A DNA stretch of 64,000 nucleotides from Maribacter orientalis (GTDB taxonomy: Bacteria > Bacteroidota > Bacteroidia > Flavobacteriales > Flavobacteriaceae). The stretch is from contig NZ_FNZN01000013.1 of assembly GCF_900109345.1 (NCBI RefSeq), positions 1-64,000 of the forward strand, written 5' to 3'. Shown here piece after piece: positions 29,278 through 48,011 of the stretch (the first letter of the stretch is position 1; the number at the start of each line of letters is the position of its first letter). Below the pieces are notes generated by a model. It was not told the DNA's origin. It worked only from the letters and a program-made list of their open reading frames with translations, and did no database searches. A program made the translations under genes and the position numbers.

Positions 29278-29350
29278 CACGGGAGGAGAGACTCGAACTC
29301 CCGACACCTGGTTTTGGAGACCAGTGCTCTACCAACTGAGCTACACCCGT
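29278..29350 (-). tRNA. tRNA-Trp (CCA)
   Basis: The full cloverleaf is 73 nt. Acceptor ACGGGTG pairs with CTCCCGT (one wobble), the anticodon loop is CTCCAAA with anticodon CCA, the T-arm has GTTCGAG, and the discriminator is G. The 3' CCA is not encoded. It sits between tuf and secE, as in most Bacteroidota. Confidence 0.96.
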
Positions 29351-29445
29351 ATGAATAGTGATATAAACCACCTATTCTTTTATTTGCATGTAAAGGTGTC
29401 CCGCTTGAGCAAGACACCCTTAAACACAATTCTCTTTAGATTAAA

Positions 29446-30633
29446 TTAATCTATGATCTTAGTTACCTGACCAGCACCTACCGTTCTACCACCTTCACGG
29501 ATAGCGAAACGTAGACCTACGCTCAATGCGATTGGCTGAATCAACTCAACTGTAATTGTAAGGTTATCACCTGGCATTACCATTTCAACTCCAGCAGGAA
29601 GTGCAATGTTACCAGTAACATCAGTAGTTCTTACGTAGAACTGTGGACGGTAGTTATTGTGAAATGGCGTGTGACGACCACCTTCTTCTTTTTTCAATAC
29701 ATAAACTTCAGCTTCAAATTTAGCATGTGGCTTAACAGAACCTGGCTTACAGATTACCATTCCACGGCTAATTTGCGATTTTTCAATACCTCTTAACAAG
29801 ATACCTACGTTATCACCAGCCTCACCTCTATCTAATATTTTGCGGAACATTTCAACCCCTGTGATAGTAGAGTTTAATTTTTCAGCACCCATACCAATAA
29901 TCTCGACAGGATCACCAGTGTTTGCAATACCAGTTTCTATACGACCAGTAGCAACAGTACCACGACCGGTAATAGTAAATACATCTTCAACAGGCATTAA
30001 GAAAGGCTTCTCAACATCTCTTACAGGCAATTCGATCCAGCTATCAACAGCTTCCATCAATTCCATTACCGTATCAACCCATTTTTGCTCACCGTTCAAT
30101 GCACCTAATGCAGAACCAGCGATTACAGGTCCATTATCACCATCATACTCATAAAAAGAAAGCAATTCTCTTACTTCCATTTCAACAAGCTCGATCAATT
30201 CCTCATCATCAACCATATCCACTTTATTCATGAATACAACCATTCTAGGAATACCAACCTGGCGACCTAAAAGGATATGCTCACGAGTTTGAGGCATAGG
30301 ACCATCTGTAGCGGCAACAACTAATATAGCACCATCCATCTGAGCAGCACCCGTAACCATGTTTTTTACGTAATCCGCGTGACCAGGACAGTCAACGTGA
30401 GCGTAATGACGGTTAGCTGTAGAGTACTCTACGTGAGAAGTGTTAATAGTAATACCTCTTTCTTTTTCTTCAGGAGCGTTATCGATAGAATCGAAACTTC
30501 TCATTTCAGAAAGACCTGCATTTGCCAAAACAGTTGTAATAGCAGCAGTTAATGTAGTTTTACCGTGATCCACGTGTCCAATAGTACCTATATTTAAGTG
30601 CGGTTTGGAACGATCGAAAGTTTCCTTTGCCAT
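29446..30633 (-). CDS. tuf: Elongation factor Tu
   Basis: This 395-residue GTPase delivers aminoacyl-tRNA to the ribosome. It starts [20 protein letters not shown], with P-loop [10 protein letters not shown], switch [14 protein letters not shown] and guanine motif NKVD. Domains 2 and 3 are complete and end in [14 protein letters not shown]. It lies between a four-tRNA cluster and tRNA-Trp, so it is probably made from one tRNA-tuf-tRNA transcript. A hairpin between it and tRNA-Trp (29395-29418) may aid processing. Confidence 0.98.
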
Positions 30634-30688
30634 GTTTAATGAATTTTAATCTTAGTTTATATTAGTGTACAAATTTATACCTTAATTG

Positions 30689-30760
30689 AGCCAATGACGA
30701 GAATTGAACTCGTGACCTCTTCCTTACCAAGGAAACGCTCTACCCCTGAGCTACACCGGC
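30689..30760 (-). tRNA. tRNA-Thr (GGT)
   Basis: The 72-nt cloverleaf has acceptor GCCGGTG pairing with CATTGGC and anticodon GGT in the loop between TTCCT and AGGAA. The T-arm has GTTCAAT. CCA is not encoded. It is the last of four tRNAs before tuf. Confidence 0.93.
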
Positions 30761-30792
30761 GTAAAGTGTCGAATCTGTCTTTCTTAAAACAG

Positions 30793-30812
30793 ATTCCTGC
30801 CTTCGCAGGGAT
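30793..30812. repeat. Short palindromic element between tRNA genes
   Basis: ATTCCTGC at 30793-30800, a CTTC loop and GCAGGGAT at 30805-30812 form an 8-bp stem with one G-T pair. It resembles small dispersed palindromes with the core ATTCCTGC-CTTC-GCAGGAAT found in many genomes. Here it lies in the 73-base gap between tRNA-Gly and tRNA-Thr. Confidence 0.55.
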
Positions 30813-30833
30813 GACATTACTGTCAAATTATAG

Positions 30834-30906
30834 AGCGGGAGACCGGGTTCGAACCGGCGACATTCAGCTTGGAAGGCTGACGCTCTACCAACTGAGCTAC
30901 TCCCGC
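30834..30906 (-). tRNA. tRNA-Gly (TCC)
   Basis: The 73-nt cloverleaf has acceptor GCGGGAG pairing with CTCCCGC, anticodon TCC in loop CTTCCAA, T-arm GTTCGAA and discriminator T. CCA is not encoded. Confidence 0.95.
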
Positions 30907-30955
30907 TTATAAAAATTACAATATTTCAATTTAAAGTCCCTAGTTAAAAGTTTTG

Positions 30956-31037
<82 letters not shown>

Positions 31038-31064
31038 TCAAACTAATATTTTCAAGAACTTTAG

Positions 31065-31138
31065 AGCCGATGGAGGGACTCGAACCCACGACCTGCTGAT
31101 TACAAATCAGCTGCTCTAGCCAGCTGAGCTACATCGGC
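31065..31138 (-). tRNA. tRNA-Thr (TGT)
   Basis: The 74-nt cloverleaf has acceptor GCCGATG pairing with CATCGGC, anticodon TGT in loop TTTGTAA and T-arm GTTCGAG. It is the first tRNA of the tRNA-tuf operon, downstream of a good promoter. CCA is not encoded. Confidence 0.95.
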
Positions 31139-40779: not shown

Positions 40780-41361
40780 ATGAAAAAAACAATATTAAGT
40801 ATCGCATTAGTTGCAGTTTTCGGTTTAACAGCATCTGCCTCTGCGCCTAATGAAGATGAAAAGAAACCAGTAAAAGTTAGTGAAAGTACCGTTACTTGGA
40901 AAGGATATAAAGTTACTGGGGAGCATAATGGTTCAATAAATTTGAAATCTGGTTTTTTAGAAATGAAAGGCAAGAAATTAATAGGTGGCGAATTCGTTGT
41001 AGATATGACATCTCTTACATGTAACGATTTAGAAGCCGGTCAAGGAAAAGAAAAATTAGAAGGTCATTTGAAATCTGCAGATTTCTTCGGTGTAGATGCT
41101 AATCCTAACTCTAAATTAGTTTTTACTTCAGTAAAAGCGATGAATGAAAATTCATACACAGCAACTGGAGATTTAACTATAAAAGGAATTACAAAGCCTG
41201 TAACTGTTGTAGTTTCTATGTTTGAAAATAAAGCAACAGCTACTATTAAAGTTGATAGAACTAAATATGATATTAAATATGGTTCTGGAAGCTTCTTCGA
41301 TGACTTAGGAGACAAAGCTATTTATGATGAGTTCGATTTAGTTGTAGATCTAGCGCTATAA
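40780..41361 (+). CDS. YceI family periplasmic protein
   Basis: This 193-residue exported lipocalin-like protein has signal peptide MKKTILSIALVAVFGLTASASA, then a YceI barrel (STVTWKGYKVTGEHNGSINL; DLTIKGITKPVTVVV). The family binds isoprenoid-like or amphiphilic ligands in the periplasm. It is the third gene of the MarR unit, 30 bases after the nitroreductase, and is followed by a strong terminator. A redox or quinone-stress role is suggested by the setting. Confidence 0.92.
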   Translation: MKKTILSIALVAVFGLTASASAPNEDEKKPVKVSESTVTWKGYKVTGEHNGSINLKSGFLEMKGKKLIGGEFVVDMTSLTCNDLEAGQGKEKLEGHLKSADFFGVDANPNSKLVFTSVKAMNENSYTATGDLTIKGITKPVTVVVSMFENKATATIKVDRTKYDIKYGSGSFFDDLGDKAIYDEFDLVVDLAL

Positions 41362-41406
41362 TTATTATTATTTTAGGTATTACCTAAGTCAAATTCAAAC
41401 AATTTT

Positions 41407-41443
41407 AAATCCCTTTGATAAATTTCAAAGGGATTTTTATTTT
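41407..41443 (+). terminator. Terminator of the MarR-nitroreductase-YceI operon
   Basis: AAATCCCTTTGA at 41407-41418 pairs perfectly with TCAAAGGGATTT at 41425-41436, followed by TTTATTTTT-like sequence. It ends about 15 bases before the trp promoter. Confidence 0.9.
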
Positions 41444-41456
41444 TGAAGAAGGAAAG

Positions 41457-41487
41457 TTTGATAGTTTAAAATTCCTTTATATATTTG
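41457..41487 (+). promoter_or_regulatory. trpE: Promoter of the trp operon
   Basis: TTTG at 41457-41460 and TATATTTG at 41480-41487 are separated by 19 bases, matching the Bacteroidota -33/-7 consensus. RNA would begin about 41492, only a few bases before the leader-peptide ATG at 41495. Confidence 0.8.
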
Positions 41488-41494
41488 AACTTCA

Positions 41495-41551
41495 ATGAAA
41501 AATTTAATTGCAAATACTTGGTGGTGGAATAACTTACGAATAACAACGTGA
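41495..41551 (+). CDS. trpL: trp operon leader peptide
   Basis: An 18-codon ORF, MKNLIANTWWWNNLRITT, ends in TGA at 41549-41551. Three consecutive Trp codons occupy 41519-41527. Trp is the rarest amino acid, so a WWW run in a tiny ORF between a trp promoter and trpE is strong evidence of a leader peptide for attenuation. Its stop codon lies in the left arm of the predicted antiterminator, so a ribosome that finishes the peptide would mask that arm, while one stalled at the Trp codons would leave it free. Confidence 0.92.
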   Translation: MKNLIANTWWWNNLRITT

Positions 41552-41610
41552 GCAAAGCATCATTGTAGTAAAACTATATAAAGGCTTGTCATCACGACAA
41601 GCCTTCCTTA
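41546..41610 (+). promoter_or_regulatory. trp attenuator: antiterminator and terminator
   Basis: The terminator is AAGGCTTGTC (41581-41590), loop ATCAC, GACAAGCCTT (41596-41605), then CCTTATTTTA, a modest U-tract. The alternative pairing is C47-G96, G48-C95, T49-A94, G50-C93, A51-T92, G52-C90, C53-G88, A54-T87, A55-T86, G57-C85 and C58-G84 (last two digits of 415xx), 11 pairs with small bulges. It uses up the left arm of the terminator, so the two structures exclude each other. Confidence 0.85.
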
Positions 41611-41626
41611 TTTTATAAAAGTACCT

Positions 41627-43024
41627 ATGGCCTATCAATTTAAAACATATCATAAAAAAATTCTTTCCGACACGTTAACCCCGGTAAGTATTTATTTAAA
41701 AATCAGGGACCGTTTTCCAAATAGTATTTTATTGGAGAGTAGTGACTATCACGCAAATGATAATAGCTTTTCCTATATCTGCTGCAACCCTATAGCTTCT
41801 ATAAAAATTGAGAACGAAACCGTTACCGAAACGTATCCTGATGGTACAATAGAAGAATTGAAAATTGATGAAAAAACTAATATTGTTGAAATTATTGATG
41901 CATTTAGCAAGACTTTCAAAGCGGATGACAATGATTTTAAATTCATTAACAACGGTCTTTTTGGATATATGGCTTATGATGCCGTTCGATATTTCGAGGA
42001 TGTCAATTTAACCGCAAAGGAAGATTCTATTCAGATACCGGATATCTACTACGCCGTGTATCAAAATATTATTGCAATCAATCACTTTAAAAATGAAGCC
42101 TATCTATTTGCTCATTGTTACGAGGTAGACAATAATATTCCAGAATTAGAGCAGCTTCTGAACATTCGAAATTTTGCCACCTACAATTTCAAGATAGATG
42201 GCGAAAGAGAATCCAATTTAGAAGACGAAGAATTTAGAGAACAAGTTACGTTGGCAAAAAAACATTGCCAACGTGGCGATGTTTTTCAATTGGTCTTAAG
42301 TCGTAGATTCTCGCAAGGTTTCAAAGGTGATGAATTCAATGTATACAGAGCTTTACGCTCGGTGAACCCTTCACCATACTTATTCTATTTCGATTATGGC
42401 GATTTTAAAATCTTCGGAAGTTCTCCCGAGGCTCAATTAATTGTAAGTGATGGTAAGGCTGAAATACATCCAATTGCAGGTACTTTTAAAAGAACCGGAA
42501 ATGACGAGCAAGATGCTGAACTAGCTAAAGAATTAAAAGCTGACGACAAAGAAAACAGTGAACATGTAATGTTAGTCGATTTGGCTCGTAACGATTTAAG
42601 TCGAAATGGCAACGTTGTTCAAGTCGAGAATTATAGAGAGGTTCAATTTTTCTCACATGTAATACATTTAGTTTCTAAGGTTACTGGAATGAAAAAAAAT
42701 GATATTTCTACCATGAAAGTAGTGGCAGACACCTTTCCGGCTGGCACATTAAGTGGTGCGCCAAAGCACATGGCAATGCAACTTATTGAAAAATACGAAA
42801 AAACAAGTCGCGGATATTATGGTGGTGCAATCGGGTTTATGGACTTTAACGGCAACTTCAACCATGCTATCATGATTAGAACTTTTCTCAGTAAAAACCA
42901 TGAACTTCATTATCAGGCAGGGGCAGGTATTGTGGCAGCTTCTAACTCAGAAAACGAGCTACAAGAAACCTATAACAAATTAGGCGCTTTAACCAAAGCA
43001 CTAGAAATAGCGGAGGAAATTTAA
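41627..43024 (+). CDS. trpE: Anthranilate synthase component I
   Basis: This 465-residue chorismate-using enzyme makes anthranilate with ammonia from TrpG. The tryptophan feedback site motif LLES is at 35-38. The catalytic half has LSRRFSQGFKGDEFNVYRAL, FGSSPEAQLIV, HPIAGTFKRTGNDEQDAELA, DLARNDLSRNG, AGTLSGAPKHMAM and RGYYGGAIGFM, all typical. It is the first structural gene of trpEGDCFBA, expressed behind the attenuator, so the pathway has both feedback and attenuation control. Confidence 0.97.
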   Translation: MAYQFKTYHKKILSDTLTPVSIYLKIRDRFPNSILLESSDYHANDNSFSYICCNPIASIKIENETVTETYPDGTIEELKIDEKTNIVEIIDAFSKTFKADDNDFKFINNGLFGYMAYDAVRYFEDVNLTAKEDSIQIPDIYYAVYQNIIAINHFKNEAYLFAHCYEVDNNIPELEQLLNIRNFATYNFKIDGERESNLEDEEFREQVTLAKKHCQRGDVFQLVLSRRFSQGFKGDEFNVYRALRSVNPSPYLFYFDYGDFKIFGSSPEAQLIVSDGKAEIHPIAGTFKRTGNDEQDAELAKELKADDKENSEHVMLVDLARNDLSRNGNVVQVENYREVQFFSHVIHLVSKVTGMKKNDISTMKVVADTFPAGTLSGAPKHMAMQLIEKYEKTSRGYYGGAIGFMDFNGNFNHAIMIRTFLSKNHELHYQAGAGIVAASNSENELQETYNKLGALTKALEIAEEI

Positions 43025-43025
43025 A

Positions 43026-43589
43026 ATGAAGAAAATACTAGTTATTGATAATTACGACAGTTTTACGTACAACCTTGTTCATTATTTAGAAGAGTTAGAT
43101 TGTGAAGTCGTGGTAAAACGAAATGACCAACTAACATTAGAGGAGGTTGATGCTTTTGAAAAAATAGTGCTTTCTCCTGGTCCTGGCATTCCTGATGAAG
43201 CTGGTCTATTAAAGCAAATCATTTCAACATATGCGCCCACAAAAAGTATATTCGGCGTTTGCTTAGGCCAACAGGCGATTGCCGAAGTATTTGGTGGTTC
43301 ACTAATAAATTTAGAAGAAGTTTATCACGGTATTGCAACTAAAATTAAAATCACGGTAAAGGATTCTATTTTTGAAGGGATACCATCTGAAATTGAAGTG
43401 GGTAGATATCATTCATGGGTTGTTAATCCTGAACTTCCTGACGTTCTAGAAGTAACCTCAGTTGATGAAAACGGACAGATTATGTCTTTACGCCATAAAA
43501 CCTATGATGTACGTGCTGTACAGTTTCATCCAGAGTCGGTATTAACGCCACACGGAAAAAAAATGCTAGAGAATTGGGTGAAGAATTAG
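43026..43589 (+). CDS. trpG: Anthranilate synthase component II (glutamine amidotransferase)
   Basis: This 187-residue class I amidotransferase supplies NH3 from glutamine. SPGPGIPDEAG forms the oxyanion region, GVCLGQQAIAEVFGG has nucleophile Cys79, and VQFHPESVLTPHG supplies the His-Glu of the triad. It starts one base after the trpE stop, so translational coupling is likely. Confidence 0.97.
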   Translation: MKKILVIDNYDSFTYNLVHYLEELDCEVVVKRNDQLTLEEVDAFEKIVLSPGPGIPDEAGLLKQIISTYAPTKSIFGVCLGQQAIAEVFGGSLINLEEVYHGIATKIKITVKDSIFEGIPSEIEVGRYHSWVVNPELPDVLEVTSVDENGQIMSLRHKTYDVRAVQFHPESVLTPHGKKMLENWVKN

Positions 43590-43623
43590 TATACAGCTCT
43601 ACGAATTTATTATTATCAAGAAA

Positions 43624-44619
43624 ATGAAAGAAACACTTAATAAACTTATAAATCACGAAATACTTTCTAAAGAAGACGCAAAACGTATTTTGGTCAACAT
43701 TGCGAAAGGTGATTATAATACCAGTCAAATAGCTGCCTTTTTAACGGTGTACATGATGCGCAGTATTACCATCGAAGAATTAGAGGGGTTTAGAGATGCT
43801 TTATTAGATTTATGTTTGGCCATAGATTTATCTGCCTATAACCCAATCGATTTATGCGGTACTGGTGGTGATGGTAAAGACACATTCAACATATCAACCT
43901 TGGCTTCTTTTGTAACGGCAGGTGCCGGTGTAAAAGTAACCAAACATGGTAATTATGGAGTTTCATCGAAGTGTGGTAGTAGTAATGTCATGGAGTTTCT
44001 TGGCATCAAATTTAGTAATGAAACCGATTTCCTAGAAAAATGTATCGATGAGGCAGGTATATGTGTATTGCATGCACCATTATTTCATCCAGCAATGAAA
44101 AACGTGGCACCTATTCGAAAAGACTTAGGGGTGAAGACTTTCTTTAATATGTTGGGTCCTATGGTGAATCCGGCATTTCCTCAAAATCAAATGGTAGGTG
44201 TATTTAATTTAGAATTGGCTCGTATGTACGGATATCTTTATCAGAAGACCGATAAAAACTTCACCGTTTTACATGCATTAGATGGATACGACGAAATCTC
44301 ATTGACCGGAAATACTAAAACCATTTCAAATACCACAGAGGGCATGTTAAAACCTTCAGATTTTGGCGTGAATTCTATAAAGCAATCAGATATTGTTGGT
44401 GGTGATTCTATAGAGGATTCTGCTCAAATTTTCTTAAACGTTTTGCAAGGAAAAGGAACAGAGCCACAAAACAACGTAGTTTGTGCTAACGCCGGTATTG
44501 CCATTGCAACAGTAGAAGGCTTGACTCCAATTCAAGGTTTTGAAAGAGCCAAAGAATCTTTGTTAAACGGAAAAGGTTTGGCAGCATTGAAAAAAATACA
44601 AGAATTAAGCAGGAAATAA
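43624..44619 (+). CDS. trpD: Anthranilate phosphoribosyltransferase
   Basis: The 331-residue enzyme joins anthranilate to PRPP. The PRPP-binding CGTGGDGKDTFNIST (78-92) and the KHGNYGVSSKCGSSNVMEFLG stretch (in pieces) are complete, as is the anthranilate-site VAPIRKDLGVKTFFNMLGPM. It follows trpG by 34 bases. Confidence 0.97.
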   Translation: MKETLNKLINHEILSKEDAKRILVNIAKGDYNTSQIAAFLTVYMMRSITIEELEGFRDALLDLCLAIDLSAYNPIDLCGTGGDGKDTFNISTLASFVTAGAGVKVTKHGNYGVSSKCGSSNVMEFLGIKFSNETDFLEKCIDEAGICVLHAPLFHPAMKNVAPIRKDLGVKTFFNMLGPMVNPAFPQNQMVGVFNLELARMYGYLYQKTDKNFTVLHALDGYDEISLTGNTKTISNTTEGMLKPSDFGVNSIKQSDIVGGDSIEDSAQIFLNVLQGKGTEPQNNVVCANAGIAIATVEGLTPIQGFERAKESLLNGKGLAALKKIQELSRK

Positions 44620-44620
44620 A

Positions 44621-45433
44621 ATGGCTAAGTTCGTAATGAACATATCAAACATGGATATACTTTCAAAAATAGTAGCAGACAAACGTAAGGAGGTCGAATT
44701 AAAAAAATCGATAATCCCTGTATCACAATATGAGGCATCGGCTTTGTTTGAAAGAAAAACCAACTCCTTGTCAAATGCATTGAGGCAAAATGATATGGGT
44801 ATAATTTCTGAATTTAAACGAATGTCCCCATCCAAAGCGAGTATTAACCAAAATGCAAATGTTGGCCAGGTAGCAAAGGGGTATGAAAAAGCCGGTGTTT
44901 GTGGAATGAGCATACTTACAGATATCAAATATTTTGGTGGTTCTATTGAAGATTTAATTTTAGCGAGGGCGTCGGTTCAACTACCATTACTTCGTAAAGA
45001 ATTTATTATCAATGAGTATCAAATAATAGAAGCAAAGGCATATGGCGCAGATGTCATCTTATTAATTGCAGCAATTTTAACGAAACAAGAAATCAAAACC
45101 TTTTCTGAGCTTGCCAAAAGTTTAGGGTTAGATGTTCTTTTGGAGGTGCATAATGAAGAAGAATTACATAAATCTATTATGCCAAGTTTAGATATGTTAG
45201 GGGTTAATAATCGTAACCTAAAAACTTTTGAGGTAAGTCTTGATACTAGTAAGTTATTATCTAAATTGATACCTGATGATTTTGTGAAAGTATCAGAAAG
45301 TGGTATTAGTTCTATTGAGGCCATCCAAGAATTAAAAGAATATGGTTACAAAGGATTTCTAATTGGAGAAAATTTCATGAAAACCGATAACCCAGGACAA
45401 AGTGCCATAGACTTTATCCAGAATTTAAAATAG
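44621..45433 (+). CDS. trpC: Indole-3-glycerol phosphate synthase
   Basis: This TIM-barrel enzyme forms indole-3-glycerol phosphate. Up to 270 residues from the ATG one base after trpD; the family usually starts like MDILSKIVADKRKEVE, so the ATG at 44651 (or 44636) may be the true start. Conserved parts are IISEFKRMSPSKASI, GMSILTDIKYFGGS, LLRKEFIINEYQI, LGVNNRNLKTFEV and SESGISS. It is not fused to trpF here. Confidence 0.96.
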   Translation: MAKFVMNISNMDILSKIVADKRKEVELKKSIIPVSQYEASALFERKTNSLSNALRQNDMGIISEFKRMSPSKASINQNANVGQVAKGYEKAGVCGMSILTDIKYFGGSIEDLILARASVQLPLLRKEFIINEYQIIEAKAYGADVILLIAAILTKQEIKTFSELAKSLGLDVLLEVHNEEELHKSIMPSLDMLGVNNRNLKTFEVSLDTSKLLSKLIPDDFVKVSESGISSIEAIQELKEYGYKGFLIGENFMKTDNPGQSAIDFIQNLK

Positions 45434-45437
45434 AATC

Positions 45438-46064
45438 ATGAAGCTAAAAATCTGTGGCATGAAATTAAATACAGCCGAAGTCGCACAATTGCGACCAGAC
45501 TATCTTGGCTTTATTTTTTGGAAACATTCGTCCAGATTCTTTGAAGGTGAAATTCCAGAACTCCCTCATTACATTAATAAAATAGGAGTTTTTGTTGATG
45601 CCGAATTTGATTATATTATCAAGATGGTTAAAAAATATCAATTACAAGGATTGCAGTTACATGGTCATGAAAGTCCAGAATATTGCGCAGAAATTGCATC
45701 AGAATTAAAAAAAACAAATCATAAAGTTGATATCATTAAGGTCTTTTCCATAAAGGAGGAATTTGATTTTGATGTACTAACTACTTATGAGAAAGCATGT
45801 GATTATTATCTTTTTGATACCAAAGGAAAATTACCTGGTGGTAACGGGTATACTTTCGACTGGTCTGTTTTAAAAAATTATCCTTCAACCAAACCTTACT
45901 TTTTAAGTGGAGGTATTGGGTTAAATAACCTTGATAAAATAAACGAATTCATAAAATTACCTGAATCTAAATACTGCTTTGCAATTGATGTGAACAGTAA
46001 ATTTGAAGCAGCACCAGGATTAAAAAAAATTGAAGAATTACAACTATTTAAAAAAGCGCTATGA
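45438..46064 (+). CDS. trpF: Phosphoribosylanthranilate isomerase
   Basis: The 208-residue TIM-barrel isomerase starts [27 protein letters not shown], with the catalytic Cys in [25 protein letters not shown] holds the second catalytic Asp, and [14 protein letters not shown] binds phosphate. It overlaps trpB by four bases (ATGA), so coupling is likely. Confidence 0.96.
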
Positions 46065-47245
46065 ATTATAATGCTGACGAAAAAGGATATTATGGGGAAT
46101 TTGGCGGTGCCTTTATTCCAGAAATGCTATATCCCAATGTTGAGGAGCTGCGTGCCAACTATCTAAAAATAATGTATGAGGATTCTTTTCAAGAAGAATT
46201 TAACCAGCTATTAAAAGATTATGTTGGCAGACCATCTCCATTATATTTTGCCAAACGTCTTTCTGAAAAGCACGGTTGTAAAATTTATTTGAAGCGAGAA
46301 GACCTTAACCATACAGGTGCGCATAAGATTAATAATACAATTGGTCAAATACTAATGGCTCAGAAATTAGGCAAGACTAGAATAATTGCAGAAACGGGCG
46401 CTGGTCAACATGGGGTTGCAACCGCTACGGTTTGTGCGTTAATGGGCTTAGAATGTATTGTATATATGGGTGAAATCGATATTGCTCGTCAAGCACCAAA
46501 TGTGGCCCGTATGAAAATGCTAGGCGCAGAGGTTAGACCAGCGAAATCTGGCAGTAGAACGCTAAAAGATGCGACAAATGAAGCAATCAGAGATTGGATC
46601 AACAATCCGGTAGATACGCATTATATTATAGGCTCTGCGATTGGGCCACACCCCTACCCTGATATGGTGACGCGGTTTCAATCTGTTATATCCGAAGAAA
46701 TAAAATGGCAACTAAAAGAAAAAGAAGGACGTGAAAATCCTGATTATGTTGTTGCTTGTATTGGTGGTGGCAGTAATGCCGCAGGCACCTATTATCACTT
46801 TTTACATGAACCTGAAGTAGGTATTATTGCTGTGGAAGCAGCAGGTAAAGGCGTAAATTCAGGAGAAAGTGCAGCAACTTCTGCTTTAGGAAAAGTTGGA
46901 ATTATTCATGGCTGTAAAACAATGCTGATGCAAACACCTGATGGACAAATTACCGAACCCTACTCTATTTCTGCAGGATTAGATTACCCTGGTGTCGGAC
47001 CTATGCATTCGCATTTATACAAAACAGGTCGTGCAGAATTTTATTCGGCTACCGATGATGAGGCTATGGCTGCAGGGCTAGAATTAACACAATTAGAAGG
47101 AATCATACCCGCCATTGAAACGGGACATGCATTTGCCATTTTTGCCCATAAAAAATTCAAGAAAGATGATGTTGTAGTAATTAGTCTTTCTGGAAGAGGT
47201 GATAAAGATTTGAACACGTATATCGATTATTTTAAGCTAGCATAA
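46061..47245 (+). CDS. trpB: Tryptophan synthase beta chain
   Basis: This 394-residue PLP enzyme condenses indole and serine. [15 protein letters not shown] contains the PLP lysine, [18 protein letters not shown] is the core helix, and [15 protein letters not shown] binds the phosphate. VEAAGKG and [15 protein letters not shown] [14 protein letters not shown] are intact. It starts [22 protein letters not shown], a TrpB1-type protein. It pairs with TrpA through a substrate tunnel. Confidence 0.98.
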
Positions 47246-47246
47246 G

Positions 47247-48011
47247 ATGAGCAATAGAATAAAAAGCAAATTACAAGAAGACAAGAAACTTCTTTCCATA
47301 TATTTTACAGCTGGGTATCCATCTTTAAATGACACTGTTCAGATTATTCAAGATTTGGAGAAGAATGATGTAGATATGATTGAAATAGGTTTACCCTTTA
47401 GTGATCCTTTAGCAGACGGCCCTACAATTCAAGAAAGTTCTACCCATGCCTTAAAAAATGGTATGACTACCGAACTACTTTTTGACCAATTAAAAGACAT
47501 TAGAAAATCTGTTTCTATTCCCTTGATTATTATGGGATATTTCAACCCAATGCTACAATATGGCGTTGAAGCATTTTGTAAAAAATGTCATGAGATAGGT
47601 ATTGATGGTTTAATTATGCCCGATTTACCTTTAGATGTGTATCAATCGGATTATGAAGCAATATTCAAAAAATATGGGTTGTTAAATATCTTCTTAATTA
47701 CTCCGCAAACTAGTGATCAGCGTATTCACCAAATCGACAAGGCTTCAGATGGATTTATCTATATGGTTAGCTCGGCAAGTGTAACAGGGTCAAAATCTGG
47801 TTTTGGGCAAGAGCAAGAAAATTATTTTGAGCGCGTTGCAGCAATGAATCTAAAAAACACACAGATTGTTGGGTTTGGTATTAAAGACGCGGAAACTTTT
47901 AAACAAGCCACTAAAACTGCTAAAGGTGCCATTATTGGTTCAGCTTTTATTAAACATTTGACGGCAAATGGAATTACCAAAATAGCCGATTTCATTAATA
48001 AAATACGTTAA
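47247..48011 (+). CDS. trpA: Tryptophan synthase alpha chain
   Basis: This 254-residue TIM barrel splits indole-3-glycerol phosphate. MIEIGLPFSDPLADGPTIQ carries the catalytic Glu, GLIMPDLPLD the catalytic Asp, and IYMVSSASVTGSKSGF and VGFGIKDAE the phosphate loops. It starts one base after trpB and is last of the biosynthetic genes. Confidence 0.97.
   Translation: MSNRIKSKLQEDKKLLSIYFTAGYPSLNDTVQIIQDLEKNDVDMIEIGLPFSDPLADGPTIQESSTHALKNGMTTELLFDQLKDIRKSVSIPLIIMGYFNPMLQYGVEAFCKKCHEIGIDGLIMPDLPLDVYQSDYEAIFKKYGLLNIFLITPQTSDQRIHQIDKASDGFIYMVSSASVTGSKSGFGQEQENYFERVAAMNLKNTQIVGFGIKDAETFKQATKTAKGAIIGSAFIKHLTANGITKIADFINKIR

Follow-up and report, generated by a model that had tools for sequence, protein, structure and literature searches.

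A Bacteroid-trp leader with a predicted ribosome-mediated attenuator ahead of the tryptophan operon of Maribacter orientalis

The trpEGDCFBA operon of Maribacter orientalis is very probably controlled by a ribosome-mediated transcription attenuator of the RF01692 (Bacteroid-trp) type, a reading drawn from sequence and comparison, to which a probability of about 0.9 is assigned. The element lies in the window, a stretch of 64,000 nucleotides (assembly GCF_900109345.1, contig NZ_FNZN01000013.1), where TTTG, TATATTTG, an 18-codon ORF with three Trp codons and a 10-bp hairpin follow one another 5' to 3' ahead of trpE. It is a member of a catalogued family and as a kind is not new; its switching parts appear better supported by the present comparison than by the Rfam model alone.

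The trp operon, its leader and the RF01692 family

The features are as follows.

41407-41436, plus strand: terminator-like hairpin, found by the terminator scan on both strands, between a YceI-like gene (by Pfam) and the trp leader
41457-41460, plus strand: -33 element TTTG (sequence, relatives)
41480-41487, plus strand: -7 element TATATTTG (TAnnTTTG; sequence, distance to the leader ATG in relatives)
41495-41551, plus strand: leader ORF MKNLIANTWWWNNLRITT, 18 codons, stop TGA at 41549-41551 (sequence, relatives)
41515-41570, plus strand: outer 1:2 helix, 41515-41526 with 41558-41570, pairing the Trp-codon region with the post-stop region (predicted fold, Rfam structure)
41519-41527, plus strand: three Trp control codons (sequence, alignment)
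41533-41552, plus strand: inner 1:2 hairpin, 41533-41538 with 41547-41552, which hides the antiterminator arm (predicted fold)
41547-41558, plus strand: antiterminator left arm (segment 2), whose core CGTGA at 41547-41551 holds the leader stop (CGTGA spacing, pairing)
41581-41605, plus strand: intrinsic terminator hairpin AAGGCTTGTC/GACAAGCCTT, segments 3:4, then a weak T tract (terminator scan, alignment)
41584-41596, plus strand: antiterminator right arm (segment 3), the terminator left arm plus loop (pairing)
41627-43024, plus strand: trpE (ORF, Pfam domain)
43026-43589, plus strand: trpG (ORF, Pfam domain)
43624-44619, plus strand: trpD (ORF, Pfam domain)
44621-45433, plus strand: trpC (ORF, Pfam domain)
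45438-46064, plus strand: trpF (ORF, Pfam domain)
46061-47245, plus strand: trpB (ORF, Pfam domain)
47247-48011, plus strand: trpA (ORF, Pfam domain)

The gene order trpE-G-D-C-F-B-A (41627-48011) follows from ORFs and Pfam domains, from which the names were assigned in the present analysis; the trpE gene is 95% identical, over the best segment, to that of Maribacter arcticus. A CRISPR-repeat reading of 41403-41448 was set aside, being a weak match (30.5 bits against a cut-off of 48) that sits on the upstream hairpin. Five tRNA genes lie on the minus strand of the window at 29278-31138.

RF01692 matches the window at 41475-41590 with 49.6 bits, a narrow margin over the cut-off of 49, and the match covers model positions 1-131, which is the full length; the genome gives no further match at E 0.001. 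The family is marked by a Trp-codon-rich leader ORF ahead of Bacteroidota trp genes, here 41495-41551 with its WWW before trpE. Its structure models the 1:2 pairing, while the terminator and antiterminator are absent because the model stops at the terminator left arm. Bacteroid-trp was introduced in 2010 by Weinberg et al. (PMC2864571), who give it in table 1 as a likely cis-regulatory RNA of Bacteroidetes; a likeness of the element to E. coli attenuation was drawn in a 2019 paper on F. psychrophilum. The novelty suggested for a Bacteroidota trp attenuator by an earlier sequence-only reading of this DNA was thus wrong, since the element has been catalogued since 2010. A literature search on transcriptional attenuation with trpE gave no match; subscription journals lay mostly outside it, and earlier accounts may exist. 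RF01692 is matched in 109 of the 149 genomes sampled from the family, in 33 of 196 of the order sample (28 of the 33 in the family) and in 42 of 395 of the phylum sample (35 in the family). These counts come from searches whose filters lose weak matches, and the inspection covered the genomes with a match.

The leader ORF with three consecutive Trp codons, named in that reading together with the -33/-7 promoter and the terminator stem, is present in the window as listed, as are the other two. Its persistence in relatives, on which the reading had staked its refutation, is borne out in two samples. All of the best 80 of 586 trpE candidate loci carry a WWW leader, 71 within 320 nt of trpE and nine farther upstream; the absence of a leader in these nine was only apparent. 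At least two adjacent Trp codons occur in the leaders of all 109 RF01692-positive genomes of the family sample (108 genera; 105 by script, four by eye). The two samples are not independent, because they overlap (L187/L005, L199/L073, L163/L059, L176/L051, L216/L038). With 63 further loci the trpE set was extended to 144 including the window, and leader and hairpin were located in each, the hairpin of L054 wrongly, since the script picked another than the true one visible in its sequence.

The peptide core N-T-WWW-N-N-L/S-R is well conserved in the window clade; across the set the Trp codons, like the distance of 19 nt from them to the antiterminator arm, are nearly fixed, and the other leader codons vary. 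By eye, the Trp leaders of L111, L159 and L207 begin apparently with TTG and that of L194 with GTG. The leader of L111, whose sequence is cut at the terminator, was missed by the script because of its TTG start. More distant leaders with Tyr-Trp-Trp(-Trp) runs, in which CGTAA or CGTAG replaces CGTGA, are seen in L132, L139 and L140. In eight loci (L025, L053, L054, L055, L061, L062, L078, L080) a small GIY-YIG nuclease-like ORF of 94 residues (71 printed in L025; Pfam run on the L061 protein) sits between attenuator and trpE, accompanied by short palindromes, for instance TTTCCGCGAAGGCGGAAA. L079 is similar, with no such open ORF printed. An ORF in this position would be expected to come under Trp control.

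Terminator, antiterminator and competing folds

Scanning 41350-41700 for terminators gave four sites, from two hairpins that each score on both strands, where shuffles average 0.1, and the leader folds better than 200 of 200 shuffles (z -3.88). The T tract 3' of the window hairpin is weak (CCTTATTTTA). For pair counts an alignment was used that keeps 73 of 143 sequences, each less than 86% identical to the others, with L054 excluded. The terminator pairs are formed in 729 of 730 cells and show changes on both sides in 7 of the 10 pairs; none of 500 shuffles is as good on all five measures, with the caveat that related sequences may beat such shuffles without structure. A terminator ahead of the first structural gene, as expected of an attenuator, is thus kept by covariation.

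The alternative stem joining 41547-41558 to 41584-41596, described earlier as having 11 pairs, indeed has 11 standard pairs, interrupted by bulges, and the leader stop TGA (41549-41551) does lie in its left arm. Taken alone, the window duplex (-11.8 kcal/mol, z -1.8) is matched by 14 of 200 shuffles and does not stand clearly apart from chance; the case for this antiterminator comes from relatives. Of 130 loci scored, 90 have z below -2 (median -2.4) and 12 are better than 200 of 200 shuffles, a tally that is rough because ORFs or hairpins are wrong in, for example, L053, L054, L071 and L080, and 14 of the 144 loci have no scored hairpin. Six core pairs are formed in 426 of 438 cells and the seventh in 34 of 73 sequences. 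Against shuffles, the percentage paired is reached by 6 of 500, the covariation score by 2 and the number of pair types by 432; changes on both sides occur in two of seven pairs, and 60 of 500 shuffles do at least as well. Of the covarying stems sought in relatives as a test of the sequence-only reading, the terminator was found, while the antiterminator is conserved and its covariation is weak.

The spacing of CGTGA adds to this picture. In 136 of the 144 loci the motif follows the last Trp codon at a distance of 16-21 nt, and in 126 of them the distance is exactly 19 nt. For 121 of the 136 the TGA of the motif serves as the leader stop, placed, as in the window, where a terminating ribosome would presumably cover segment 2; in eight it lies within the ORF before a later stop and in seven after the stop. 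Conservation at 19 nt, although 15 of the 136 motifs do not take the usual place at the leader stop, argues that it concerns the RNA and not only the peptide. CGTGA is absent from eight of the 144 loci (L104, L132, L134, L135, L137-L140). The duplexes of L104 and L134 are weak (z 0.03 and -1.36). In L135, L137 and L138, which come from a different family within the order, neither arm is kept, and in their place UUCAAAGUCUU pairs with AAGACUUUGA in 10 pairs (-12.7 or -12.8 kcal/mol); the leader of these three carries NWWWPQNFQSLEHCSFV, with the box 5 nt before ATG. Arm 2 of these loci with arm 3 of five flavobacterial loci gives -6.7 to -8.5. Swapping the other way gives mixed results: arm 2 of L118 pairs with arm 3 of L137 at -14.2, better than the own pair of L137 (-12.8), and further foreign combinations, such as arm 2 of L145 with arm 3 of L092 (-20.2), also outdo own pairs.

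The earlier structural account named its elements correctly and lacked the competing 1:2 pairing of CUUACG with CGUGAG. The outer 1:2 helix is paired in 77.4% of cells, which is not above shuffles (79 of 500 reach it). The inner hairpin is paired in 80.5%, which is above shuffles, and its covariation score exceeds that of all 500; a control shifted by -3 covaries about equally (0.185 against 0.190). Naked RNA is predicted to fold into 1:2 plus terminator (-29.9), RNA free from 41532 and made to 41596 into the antiterminator (-14.2), and once the right terminator arm is present in RNA free from 41532 the terminator is again the lowest fold (-23.1). Antitermination must therefore depend on the order of synthesis, which is held to decide in other attenuators as well. 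If the footprint of a ribosome extends about 15 nt past the first P-site base, the front edge of one stalled on the three Trp codons would lie near 41531-41537, before the arm at 41547; for one at the leader stop it would lie near 41561, so that the arm is covered up to its last base at 41558. The predicted folding thus agrees in part with the ribosome geometry.

Promoter and near-leaderless start

TTTG and TATATTTG are 19 nt apart. Of 81 loci in the trpE set, 78 have the -7 box 4-8 nt upstream of the leader ATG; the exceptions are L033 (28 nt), L040 (30 nt) and L051, which has no exact box. Among these 78 relatives TTTG occurs 17-21 nt before the box in 51, three of its four letters in 25 and neither in two. 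Such a distance predicts a 5' UTR of about 0-4 nt in the 78 loci and of 2-3 nt in the window, which leaves no room for a Shine-Dalgarno sequence, and none was seen before the window leader ATG. The proposal of a nearly leaderless peptide without Shine-Dalgarno is, as a prediction from the distance between box and ATG, supported by the comparison. As controls, a box at such a distance precedes 7 of 2344 ATGs in the window, none of its 44 ORFs of at least 120 residues, and none of 424 such ORFs in 80 trpE loci, many of which are the same few genes.

The TAnnTTTG box is reported at -12 to -5 in F. psychrophilum (PMC9723704), and in F. johnsoniae probable promoters were defined with 4 or 5 nt from box to start (PMC6847099). 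Published figures for leaderless or very short 5' UTRs in Bacteroidota are low: 5.5% leaderless in F. psychrophilum (PMC9723704), 3.7% of 5' UTRs below 10 nt in B. thetaiotaomicron (PMC7366714), and 13% not over 10 nt in F. johnsoniae, derived from '87% more than 10 nt' (PMC6847099).

Family-wide, the near-leaderless start alternates with longer leaders. In the 105 family leaders measured (the remaining four of 109 lack an ATG start; in L096 the farther of two boxes was chosen by hand), the distance from box to ATG is at most 8 nt in 30, 9-13 nt in 15 and at least 14 nt in 58, and two have no box. Many inner branches of a trpE tree (FastTree, 105 rows) have poor support. On this tree the near class requires 10 changes, where shuffles give 26.4, and the window falls in a set of 18 rows (17 near, one unscored; local support 95). 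The near-leaderless context is CA|ATG, with A at -1 in 92%, C at -2 in 78% and A at -3 in 12% of 78 loci; leadered starts have A in 61-75% at each of -1 to -8 (57 loci). The chances are roughly even that trp attenuators of Bacteroidota start translation in either of two ways and have switched back and forth between them in evolution, one with an A-rich 5' UTR and one truly leaderless, in which the 5'-terminal AUG is taken once exposed, synchronising ribosome loading with the start of transcription, and that the leaderless mode is nearly fixed in the window clade. The near-leaderless start there, predicted from promoter geometry rather than from mapped RNA ends, appears to be the less expected detail, of specialist interest.

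Proposed mechanism, alternatives and known systems

On these features a mechanism may be proposed, in which the transcription start, stalling, termination and response to Trp are predicted. In the window clade the ribosome would start on an AUG at or within a few nt of the RNA 5' end, with neither a Shine-Dalgarno sequence nor the A-rich stretch found ahead of longer leaders. When charged tRNA-Trp is plentiful it would reach the leader stop and mask the CGUGA arm, the hairpin 41581-41605 would form and transcription would end before trpE. When charged tRNA-Trp is scarce it would stall on the three Trp codons and disturb the 1:2 fold, the freed 41547-41558 would pair with 41584-41596 as the latter leaves the polymerase, and, no terminator being formed, the trp genes would be read. 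Without a ribosome the arm would be hidden by the 1:2 fold, making termination the default.

A gap of 21 nt separates the end of the hairpin from the trpE ATG, and the T tract is weak. Both would suit translational attenuation, where transcripts would not end at this site and the leader ribosome would determine whether ribosomes binding at trpE are obstructed by the hairpin. Many relatives, however, have a long T tract after the hairpin, and in nine loci some 460-560 nt separate the leader from trpE, so that the hairpin would be unable to mask the trpE start; this reading is very improbable. A second role in trans of the terminated RNA or the peptide, which is compatible with attenuation, is slightly easier to credit, though still improbable. 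It would account for the conserved peptide core of the window clade, and a trans role of this kind has been proposed for rnTrpL and peTrpL of S. meliloti (PMC7298713). The conserved leader codons, however, coincide with paired RNA segments, and peptides differ in other genera while CGTGA stays. Least probable by far is a Trp-binding riboswitch or protein with an incidental ORF. A structured 5' RNA with alternative folds would fit it, but the near-fixed Trp codons and spacing amid variable codons do not, and table 1 of the 2010 paper marks the motif as not a switch (PMC2864571).

Transcription attenuation paced by the leader ribosome is thus the preferred reading, and the trpL-like logic first proposed from the sequence gains from the conserved WWW leader, the terminator covariation and the fixed CGTGA spacing. 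For a phylum in which translation starts without Shine-Dalgarno sequences, the element offers a compact and testable model of attenuation paced by the ribosome, and near-leaderless and leadered forms of one regulator, side by side, could probe how the start mode affects the tightness between ribosome and RNA polymerase.

The E. coli trpL leader contains tandem Trp codons, segments that pair as 1:2, 2:3 and 3:4, and a stop codon in segment 2. The window leader follows the same logic, but with three Trp codons instead of two, another promoter, no Shine-Dalgarno sequence and a predicted near-leaderless start; the likeness proposed is one of logic. RF01692 shares with the window the place before trp genes and the Trp-rich leader; its model lacks the terminator and antiterminator, and the window scores near its cut-off. 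The trpL of S. meliloti (rnTrpL) is likewise a trp attenuator, whose RNA begins with the leader ATG (PMC7298713), and on this precedent a leaderless trpL is in itself not new. It differs in belonging to another phylum and having another promoter, while the RNA start in the window is predicted from promoter geometry.
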